Shown here: one piece after another, positions 5,547 through 8,427 of the stretch
Position numbering within the stretch: position 1 is the first letter of the stretch
How the letters are laid out: each line of letters opens with the position of its first letter
Source: Thermoleophilia bacterium
Lineage (GTDB): Bacteria; Actinomycetota; Thermoleophilia; Gaiellales; Gaiellaceae
NCBI GenBank assembly: GCA_009694305.1
Contig: SHVL01000019.1
Location: 1 to 43,943 of the forward strand
Reading direction: 5' to 3'
DNA length: 43,943 nucleotides
Notes under the pieces: generated by a model
What the model saw: the letters and a program-made list of their open reading frames with translations, nothing else
Told to the model about the DNA's origin: nothing
Database searches by the model: none
Position numbers and translations under genes: made by a program

Positions 5547-5549
5547 AAT
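5544..5549 (+). promoter_or_regulatory. -10 element upstream of the glycosidase-like gene
   Basis: TAGAAT lies at the very end of the DUF1611 gene. A start near 5556 would give a 45-base leader containing the GGAGG ribosome site at 5591-5595. Confidence 0.35.
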
Positions 5550-5601
5550 GCCTCCTGCCCGGCTGGGGTTCAGGCGGGATGTGCGTCACTGGAGGGGTCG
5601 G

Positions 5602-7071
5602 GTGCGGAGAGCGGTGGCAGTGTCATTTGCTTTGGCGGCGCTCACGGGAGTGGCTCTCGCGGTAGCGCGAGCAGCGCCTGCCGCCGACATCGGCGCAAAT
5701 GACGACACCGGAAAATGGGCGGCCGACTCGGGGGCCATGTTCTTCTCCCGGATGGTAGGGCTCGGCCTCCGGCAGTCGGTGATGACCGTCAGGTGGACGC
5801 CGAGCGACCCTCTGTCGATCCCGGATGAGGATGCTCTTGGCCTGGCGATACAGACCGCGGAGCTGGCCGGACTGCGTGTCGTGCTCGCGGTCTACCCCTA
5901 CCCAACCCGGGAGGTAGAGGCAGGCCTTGCCCGCCCTGCCGCCTTTGCTGCCTGGCTCACCGGAGTTGCGAACCGGTACCCGACCGTGAAGCAGTACGCA
6001 GTCATGAACGAGCCGAACCAGCCGGCATTCCTGCGGCCACAGTTTCGGCGCGATGGCTCGAACGCGTCGGCCGCCATCGCGGGTGCCTTCCTCGCCGCCG
6101 GCTACGACGCGCTGAAGGCCGTGGACCCGACGATCCTCGTGGTCGGCATCGGCCTCTCGCCGCGAGGCAACGACCGACCGAACGCACCGAACAACATCTC
6201 GACCTCGCCCGTGCGTTTTCTCGCCGCCCTCGGAACCTGGTACCGCGCGAGCGGCCGTCAGCTCCCCCTCATGGACGGGCTCAGCTTCCATTCCTACCCC
6301 GATCGCCCGACCGACCCACTGACCCGTGGTTCTGCCTGGCCAAACGCCGGCTTCGCAGATCTCGGACGGATCAAGCAGGCAATCTGGGACGCATTCCGGG
6401 ACACACCACAACCGACCACCGTGAACGGTCTCCGGCTCTATCTCGACGAGGTCGGCTGGCAGGTCGCCACGGTTGGACTGCCCGGCTATGCCGGGGAGGA
6501 GAACGTTGCGGTCACCAGCGAGGAGACGCAGGCGGGGATCTATGCGTCGCTCGTCCGGAGCGTTGCGTGCGACCCCCAGGTGGCGGAGTTGAACTTCTTC
6601 GGGTTCTACGACGATGCCGAGCGCGGAGGGTTCCAGGCGGCACTCCACCAGGTAGACGGCACGCCGCGGCTCTCTGCCGCAGCCGTGCAGGCCGCCATCA
6701 CCGAGACGGCCACCGGGTGCGCGGACTCGGTGGCGCCGTGGTTTCCCGCAAGGAGGGTGATTGGTGCGGTCGCCCCGGCCTGGGTCGTCACGGAGCGTCG
6801 GACGATCCGCTTCTCTGCCAAGGCCCTGGAGGGCGCAACCGTCGTTGCTTGCCTGTTCCCCGGGCGTCTCCGGGCCCCTGCGGCCGCGGCAGCGATGGAG
6901 ACACGTACGGCCGCGAGCACTGGCTGCCATGGAGCAACGGCGCTGCCACATCGGCCGGTGGCATTCGCCTTCCGCAGGGTGGGGCGCCTCGCGCCAGCCA
7001 CGATAGCCGTGCGTTTCGTGGCCGAGTCGAGCGACCGTCGATCGAGGACATTCTCGCGCACGCTCGGGTAA
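5602..7071 (+). CDS. Secreted glycoside hydrolase-like protein (cellulase/clan A fold)
   Basis: I choose the GTG at 5602 because GGAGGGG (5591-5597) sits just before it and the protein then opens with a textbook signal peptide, RRAVAVSFALAALTGVALA, cut near AAPA. The in-frame ATG at 5548 has no ribosome site. The 489-residue product has a (beta/alpha)8-like region with VMNEPN (Glu137, probable acid/base) and YLDEVGW (Glu283, probable nucleophile), the arrangement of clan GH-A enzymes. A beta-rich C-terminal tail (about 390-489) with paired cysteines may be an accessory domain. It should act outside the membrane on a polysaccharide; the substrate is unknown. The adjacent SOS gene overlaps its terminator region, and no rho-independent stop is visible. 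Confidence 0.75.
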   Translation: MRRAVAVSFALAALTGVALAVARAAPAADIGANDDTGKWAADSGAMFFSRMVGLGLRQSVMTVRWTPSDPLSIPDEDALGLAIQTAELAGLRVVLAVYPYPTREVEAGLARPAAFAAWLTGVANRYPTVKQYAVMNEPNQPAFLRPQFRRDGSNASAAIAGAFLAAGYDALKAVDPTILVVGIGLSPRGNDRPNAPNNISTSPVRFLAALGTWYRASGRQLPLMDGLSFHSYPDRPTDPLTRGSAWPNAGFADLGRIKQAIWDAFRDTPQPTTVNGLRLYLDEVGWQVATVGLPGYAGEENVAVTSEETQAGIYASLVRSVACDPQVAELNFFGFYDDAERGGFQAALHQVDGTPRLSAAAVQAAITETATGCADSVAPWFPARRVIGAVAPAWVVTERRTIRFSAKALEGATVVACLFPGRLRAPAAAAAMETRTAASTGCHGATALPHRPVAFAFRRVGRLAPATIAVRFVAESSDRRSRTFSRTLG

Positions 7072-7084
7072 TCTGGCACAGCAC

Positions 7085-7113
7085 TTGACACCGAACATAT
7101 GTTCGTGCATACT
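7085..7113 (+). promoter_or_regulatory. SOS promoter (-35 TTGACA, -10 CATACT)
   Basis: A perfect -35 TTGACA (7085-7090) is followed after exactly 17 bases by CATACT (7108-7113). The start would fall near 7120, making the ATG at 7123 almost the first codon of the message. One LexA box lies between the two elements and a second covers the start region. Confidence 0.75.
7092..7105 (+). promoter_or_regulatory. LexA box 1
   Basis: CGAACATATGTTCG is a perfect palindrome and a full match to the Gram-positive LexA operator CGAAC-N4-GTTCG. It sits in the spacer between -35 and -10, so bound LexA would block RNA polymerase. Confidence 0.88.
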
Positions 7114-7115
7114 AT

Positions 7116-7129
7116 CGAACATATGTTCG
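7116..7129 (+). promoter_or_regulatory. LexA box 2, overlapping the start codon
   Basis: A second identical palindrome CGAACATATGTTCG, centred 24 bases (about two helical turns plus) after the first. The ATG at 7123 is the centre of this operator. Identical paired sites suggest cooperative, tight repression. Confidence 0.88.
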
Positions 7130-7362
7130 GTCGTCTTCTTCTCGTTCTCGCCGTTGCCGTCGCTGCCTGGGCGCTCATCGCACGCGATTCGGACGCCGGA
7201 GCCTCGGCAAGGTCATACCGCGTGCAGTCCGGCGACACCCTCTGGTCGATCGCGACCACCGCGTACGGTGGCGACCCGCGAGACGGTGTCTGGAAGCTTC
7301 GTGATCTGAATCACCTATCGGGCACGACCATCGAGGCGGGTCAGATACTCAAGCTCCCCTAG
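7123..7362 (+). CDS. SOS-regulated small LysM membrane protein, YneA-like division inhibitor candidate
   Basis: 79 residues: one N-terminal membrane helix (about 3-20, LLLVLAVAVAAWALIA) followed directly by a LysM domain (about 31-79) with YRVQSGDTLWSIATTAYG and the closing AGQILKLP. In Bacillus the SOS cell-division inhibitor YneA has exactly this design, and actinobacteria have the LexA-controlled equivalents ChiZ/Rv2719c and DivS. The two LexA boxes over its promoter are the main evidence for the role. The start at 7123 is chosen because an upstream in-frame ATG (7099) lies before the -10. LexA itself is not encoded nearby. That it halts division after DNA damage is an inference; the domain layout and SOS control are seen. 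Confidence 0.82.
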   Translation: MFGRLLLVLAVAVAAWALIARDSDAGASARSYRVQSGDTLWSIATTAYGGDPRDGVWKLRDLNHLSGTTIEAGQILKLP

Positions 7363-7440: not shown

Positions 7441-8427
7441 GTGGACCTCGATGTCGTGTTCCTCGGGACGTCGGGTTCGGCTCCCACAGCCCGCCGGGCT
7501 ACGTCGGCCACGCTCGTGCGCCGTGGGGGTGACCGCCTGTTGATCGACTGTGGCGAGGGTACCCAGCGGCAGTTGCTCCGTTCCGACGTGGGCCTCGTGG
7601 ATCTCGAGGAGGTGTTTCTCACCCATCTGCACGCCGATCACTATCTCGGCCTTCCCGGGATGCTCAAGACGTTCGCGTTGCGCGGGCGCGAGGTGCCTTT
7701 GACCGTCTACGGCCCGAGCGGGCTTCGCGACCTCCTCGGCGCACTCCGCCGCGTCTTCGGGAAGGTGACATACCCGATCGAGACGGTAGAGATCGGACCC
7801 GGAGACGTACTCCCTCGCTCCGGCTACGAGATCCGTGCTTTTGCCGTTGACCACCGCACCGAGGCCATCGGCTACCTGATTGCGGAGGCCGCACGGCCAG
7901 GCCGCTTCGACGTCGCGATCGCCGCCGACCTCGGCGTGCCGCCCGGGCGGGAGCGCGGGGCCCTGCAGCGGGGCGAGACCGTGACCCTCGCCGGGGGCGA
8001 GACAGTGCACCCCGATCAGATTCTCGGGCCCGAGAGGCCGGGCCGCTCGGTCGCTCTGAGCGGCGATACGGCGCCTGCTGCCACGGTCGTCGCCGCCGCA
8101 GAAGGAGCCGACCTGCTCGTCCACGAGGCGACCTTTTGTGCCGACGAGCTACAGCGAGCACGTGAGACCGGCCATTCAACCGCAGGTGAAGCTGCGCTCG
8201 TCGCCCGGGAAGCGGGAGTGCGCATGCTCGCACTGACGCACGTCTCGAGCCGCTACTTCGGCGGCGAGGCCGGCGAGGAGGCGAGGCAACTCTTTCCCAA
8301 CTCGGTCGTACCGGCAGATTTCGACGTCATCGAGATTCCGTTTGCGGAGCGCGGAGAGCCGACACTCGTGCATCGGGGTGCGCGCCGGGGTCGCTCGCCG
8401 GCGGCCCGGGGAGAGCCGCAGTCGTGA
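7441..8427 (+). CDS. rnz: Ribonuclease Z
   Basis: A 328-residue metallo-beta-lactamase-fold nuclease that trims the 3' trailer from tRNA precursors, needed before CCA addition when CCA is not encoded, as for the tRNA here. The zinc-binding motif is HLHADH (His62, His64, Asp66, His67); FLGTSGSAPT opens the fold. Later ligands are in VDHRTEAIGY, LSGDTAP and LTHVSSRY. The GHSTAGEAALVA segment is typical of RNase Z. The last 20 residues are a basic tail. The start is GTG. The gene ends in a GTGA overlap with the methyltransferase gene, so the two are co-translated. Confidence 0.93.
   Translation: MDLDVVFLGTSGSAPTARRATSATLVRRGGDRLLIDCGEGTQRQLLRSDVGLVDLEEVFLTHLHADHYLGLPGMLKTFALRGREVPLTVYGPSGLRDLLGALRRVFGKVTYPIETVEIGPGDVLPRSGYEIRAFAVDHRTEAIGYLIAEAARPGRFDVAIAADLGVPPGRERGALQRGETVTLAGGETVHPDQILGPERPGRSVALSGDTAPAATVVAAAEGADLLVHEATFCADELQRARETGHSTAGEAALVAREAGVRMLALTHVSSRYFGGEAGEEARQLFPNSVVPADFDVIEIPFAERGEPTLVHRGARRGRSPAARGEPQS

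Follow-up and report, generated by a model that had tools for sequence, protein, structure and literature searches.

The window, a stretch of 43,943 nucleotides, belongs to a Gaiellales (Thermoleophilia) MAG of 2.47 Mb in 98 contigs that is 97% complete. The gene under study (7123..7362, + strand), assigned using its ORF, Pfam, NCBIfam and AlphaFold2, encodes a putative SOS-controlled LysM membrane protein of 79 residues of the YneA/ChiZ-like kind. It is preceded on the same strand by an ORF (5548..7071) that keeps this position in many relatives, and followed, also on the + strand, by ribonuclease Z (rnz, 7441..8427), a frequent downstream neighbour in relatives that falls outside the SOS unit. 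Both neighbours had been named in a first-pass annotation of the sequence. The name of rnz stands, as the gene passes the NCBIfam cut-off, but the upstream ORF, there called glycosidase-like, gave no Pfam match at E 1e-3; the label is kept below as a handle.

Promoter, operators and product of the LysM gene

TTGACA (−35, 7085..7090, + strand) and CATACT (−10, 7108..7113, + strand) form a sigma-70-like promoter with 17-bp spacing and 10 of 12 matches, where 0.1 would be expected in shuffled sequence; TTGAC is kept in most orthologs. The palindrome CGAACATATGTTCG occurs twice on the + strand in identical form, once within the 17-bp spacer (operator 1, 7092..7105) and once (operator 2, 7116..7129) across the start codon and the predicted start of transcription, with the ATG (7123–7125) at the centre of the box. 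Two perfect palindromes, one between −35 and −10 and the other centred on the start codon, were thus found exactly where the first-pass annotation had put them. When the window was searched for CGAACATATGTTCG with up to two mismatches, these two sites were the only matches (shuffles gave a mean of 0.11 and never two). A terminator-like match at 7114–7131 was rejected, being the operator palindrome itself.

In the window 9 bases separate the −10 hexamer from the ATG, and in most orthologs about as many, which leaves no space for a ribosome-binding site, and the mRNA is therefore probably leaderless or nearly so. A second in-frame ATG at 7099, inside operator 1, would give a protein of 87 residues; it was rejected as a start because, with the −10 downstream of it, it would be left out of transcripts from the TTGACA/CATACT promoter. 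No paper was found in which a LexA operator covers the start codon of a leaderless mRNA, a result that, with partial literature coverage, is weak evidence of absence.

As first read from the letters, the product combines one transmembrane (TM) helix with LysM. The helix is predicted at residues 2–20 (7126..7182, + strand) from the AlphaFold2 model and hydropathy, with a presumed N-in/C-out topology, and the LysM domain (PF01476, residues 32–79, 7216..7359, + strand), found by profile and by sequence and fold matches, scores 47.8 bits against a Pfam gathering threshold of 20.9 (E 1.4e-12). In the AlphaFold2 model (mean pLDDT 83.7), a helix at 2–20 is followed by a LysM fold at 30–78, and LysM domains head its PDB matches (rmsd about 1.6 Å). 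The protein is thus predicted to carry a single TM helix and an extracellular C-terminal LysM domain, as do proteins of the YneA/ChiZ kind. LexA-type operators before a gene whose product has a small hydrophobic helix at its N-terminus would also suit an SOS-induced membrane toxin that, like TisB, depolarises the membrane and slows growth; the part that is conserved, however, is LysM (D38 and T39 are nearly invariant in orthologs, and W41, N63 and G73 are also kept), and a toxin of this type is highly unlikely. The locus gave no match when a defence-system reading was checked with PADLOC.

The SOS regulon and conservation of the operators

Genome-wide, the CGAACATATGTTCG 14-mer is present in four copies, two at the LysM locus, one before the sole lexA and one before an imuB-like Y-family polymerase gene, where it lies between TTGACA and a −10-like TATAGA; a reversed control pattern gave no match in the whole genome. 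Exact CGAACNNNNGTTCG boxes precede uvrA, uvrB and a DnaQ/GIY-YIG/UVR gene, and recA has a box with one mismatch. Since boxes of this type precede classic SOS genes (lexA, recA, uvrA, uvrB and the imuB-like gene), those at the LysM gene are, with high probability, LexA operators of the local SOS regulon. Among these SOS genes, the LysM gene alone has two perfect boxes. Most other exact CGAACNNNNGTTCG sites (L005, L006, L008, L009, L011–L013) fall within ORFs and were left out of the regulon. The DnaQ/GIY-YIG/UVR gene (L007:1501-3013) encodes a fusion of a DnaQ-type exonuclease with GIY-YIG and UVR parts, and an ORF adjoining the imuB-like gene was named photolyase-like by eye.

An ortholog of the LysM protein was found in 53 of the 61 genomes searched (window genome included), and upstream DNA was compared for 50 orthologs, the window's among them. 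Every one of the 50 has a LexA box centred on its start codon, which is ATG in 47 and GTG in 3. A matching second box is present 22–25 bp upstream in 44, between −35 and −10 where those are visible, and is missing in the other 6, while the columns upstream of −35 hold almost no information. Codon 2 is TTC (Phe) in 50/50 orthologs and codon 3 starts with G in 49/50, as required by the operator sequence; a single 14-bp sequence thus acts as the operator while also supplying the start codon and the codons just after it. Chance placement was rejected: a central ATG gives ATGTTC in one of three frames, yet the box is in frame in every ortholog, and its recurrence at the start codon in 50/50 excludes chance.

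The claim of LexA control made in the first-pass annotation is thus strongly supported by the operator shared with the sole lexA and other SOS genes and by its conservation across the order. That LexA binds these boxes is something we infer, which leaves room for another repressor, or for boxes without function; given the same type of box before lexA, recA, uvrA, uvrB and the imuB-like gene, and its presence in 50/50 orthologs, the chance of either is next to negligible.

A further element was observed in some of these promoters. GTCCG(A), followed after ~9–10 bases by a −10-like TAnnnT, occurs in many recA promoters (L185:1413-1495; recA upstreams in L226–L254), and the same combination takes the place of the upstream LexA box in the six single-box LysM promoters (L049, L058, L061–L064). 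We take the GTCCG(A)/TAnnnT element to resemble the mycobacterial PafBC (RecA-NDp) promoter. WYL domains were present in every genome tested; in the window genome, one long frame (G000:C45:17824-19071) holds two tandem WYL domains, like a fused PafBC, and most of the other tested genomes have a similar tandem pair.

Linkage to lexA in related lineages

In the window genome, the LysM gene stands alone, as had been claimed, and is not adjacent to lexA. To survey other lineages independently of the protein sequence, a pattern made of promoter features alone (TTGAC, two boxes, RTG at the centre) was scanned against 84,980 species, and at least 118 stretches matched. Most of the matches listed belong to one of two groups. 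In Thermoleophilia they mark the LysM gene, which often has DUF1611, the glycosidase-like ORF and/or rnz close by; in Acidimicrobiia and other taxa they mark lexA loci. Among the matches listed, a LysM ORF was detected at 22 lexA loci (mostly Acidimicrobiia), and in 22 of 22 it lies upstream of lexA on the opposite strand; for 21 of these ORFs the end is at most ~240 bp from the start of lexA as aligned, and the other (L113) is 1.3 kb away.

A profile search of 299 Thermoleophilia genomes at E 1e-10 detected the LysM protein in nearly all genomes of families f1–f3 (Gaiellales) and in genomes of f6, whereas f4, f5 and f7–f12 gave no match. In f6 (G062, G067; loci L302, L307), a double-LexA-box promoter of the same build as the LysM promoter is followed, on a single strand, by lexA, then a short ORF and then the LysM gene, an arrangement that is probably an operon; the short ORF carries cysteine. 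Linkage to lexA in sister lineages, together with the gene's own operators in Gaiellales, points to membership in the SOS response by descent, and of the sequence evidence for such membership this linkage is the strongest.

Comparison with known SOS division inhibitors

SOS division inhibitors of Gram-positive bacteria are commonly lexA neighbours with one TM helix (PMC6851548). YneA (Bacillus subtilis, Listeria; NF010723 / PRK14125) is alike in its LexA control, predicted here, its small size, N-terminal TM helix and C-terminal extracellular LysM domain with GDT, and yneA and sosA are divergent from lexA, as is the LysM gene in the 22 lexA loci listed. The Gaiellales protein differs in being actinobacterial, and its gene in lying away from lexA, with an operator over the start codon and a probably leaderless mRNA. 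Against the YneA model NF010723, the 79-residue protein scores 40 bits where the curated cut-off is 60, aligning residues 5–79 to 9–85 of 87, and the model matches 28 of 28 aligned family members at E 1e-5 or better. Because 40 bits is below the 60-bit equivalog cut-off, the protein cannot be filed as YneA, and the curated model misses the Gaiellales gene; since a generic LysM model scores the protein as well as the YneA model does, homology to YneA is supported no further than LysM. In YneA of B. subtilis, genetics point to docking of the TM helix on TM7 of FtsW, and binding of LysM to peptidoglycan is needed to stop septal synthesis, D46 and T47 being essential (PMC13396833). This GDT pair corresponds to D38 and T39 of the 79-residue protein, as matched by the shared GDT motif.

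ChiZ (Rv2719c, Mycobacterium tuberculosis) is alike by description, being actinobacterial, induced by DNA damage and built of a TM helix and LysM, and the lexA-divergent LysM proteins of the 22 loci resemble it in layout. It is about twice as long as the 79-residue protein, and its gene sits by lexA, whereas the Gaiellales gene does not. Features reported for ChiZ that set it apart are wall hydrolase activity and partnership with FtsI and FtsQ, with LysM reportedly dispensable for function (PMC3989709); mechanisms within the group therefore differ. DivS (Corynebacterium glutamicum), a LexA-controlled small membrane suppressor of division encoded beside lexA, and SosA (Staphylococcus aureus), a 77-residue single-TM SOS inhibitor with an extracellular C-terminus encoded divergently from lexA, both lack LysM (PMC6851548), and DivS is a functional analogue only. 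The TM-plus-LysM design that the first-pass annotation had ascribed to YneA and to ChiZ/DivS therefore holds for YneA and ChiZ but not for DivS.

The TM helix and LysM domain, the full-length if sub-cut-off match to the YneA model and the lexA linkage in sister lineages make a checkpoint of the YneA/ChiZ type the best inference: the LysM gene is likely the SOS division inhibitor of Gaiellales, moved to a site beside rnz and expressed as a leaderless mRNA. LexA dimers on operator 1, in the −35/−10 spacer, and on operator 2, where transcription and translation begin, would hold a strong promoter off. Upon DNA damage, RecA would trigger self-cleavage of LexA, the leaderless or nearly leaderless mRNA would be made, and the 79-residue protein would insert N-in/C-out by its one TM helix. 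By analogy with YneA, the protein would attach through this helix to the septal synthase, which in B. subtilis is FtsW, and through LysM to nascent peptidoglycan, such that septum synthesis would stall until repair is done and LexA returns.

A different role for an SOS-induced LysM protein would be to remodel or protect peptidoglycan after damage, with no dedicated division inhibitor involved. LysM is a generic wall-binding domain, the best sequence and fold matches of the 79-residue protein are LysM domains of wall enzymes, and ChiZ has been reported as a hydrolase (PMC3989709). However, 79 residues are too few for a catalytic domain, the protein is built like YneA, and the double operator and lexA linkage suit a dose-sensitive inhibitor, making a role in the wall alone unlikely. 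A LexA-regulated division block could also work through targets other than FtsW, such as FtsQ/FtsI, a variant that overlaps the checkpoint reading and makes up its share without FtsW as target. The interaction of ChiZ with FtsI and FtsQ (PMC3989709) speaks for such a route, which is a real if minority possibility; against it, genetics indicate TM7 of FtsW (PMC13396833), evidence that comes from YneA. Judged by analogy, FtsW is most likely the target of the LysM protein, ahead of FtsI/FtsQ.

If true, the YneA/ChiZ-type reading would provide a soil order whose members are mostly uncultured with its DNA-damage division checkpoint. Streptomyces are said to have no clear homologs of known inhibitors (PMC9380542). 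With partial literature coverage, and hence as weak evidence of absence, no paper assigning an SOS division inhibitor to Thermoleophilia was found, in keeping with the earlier description of a lineage in which none had been assigned.

Possible effectors in other Thermoleophilia families

In f5 (L216–L224 except L222; e.g., L220:1982-2400), two LexA boxes flank GTCCGA before a gene for an undescribed small protein of ~105–115 residues, which has two hydrophobic stretches (two-TM) and is without a Pfam match. No LysM ortholog was found in these f5 genomes. The two-TM gene lies divergent to mraZ where the cluster of division and wall genes begins, and its product may be a non-homologous SOS division regulator; if true, it would represent a new class. 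Tentatively, and at somewhat less than even weight, Thermoleophilia may swap both the SOS checkpoint effector and its place, with a free-standing leaderless LysM gene in Gaiellales, a LysM gene behind lexA in f6 and the two-TM protein in f5. The class offers a natural series (in a lexA operon, lexA-divergent, relocated, replaced) for studying movement and turnover of checkpoint effectors.
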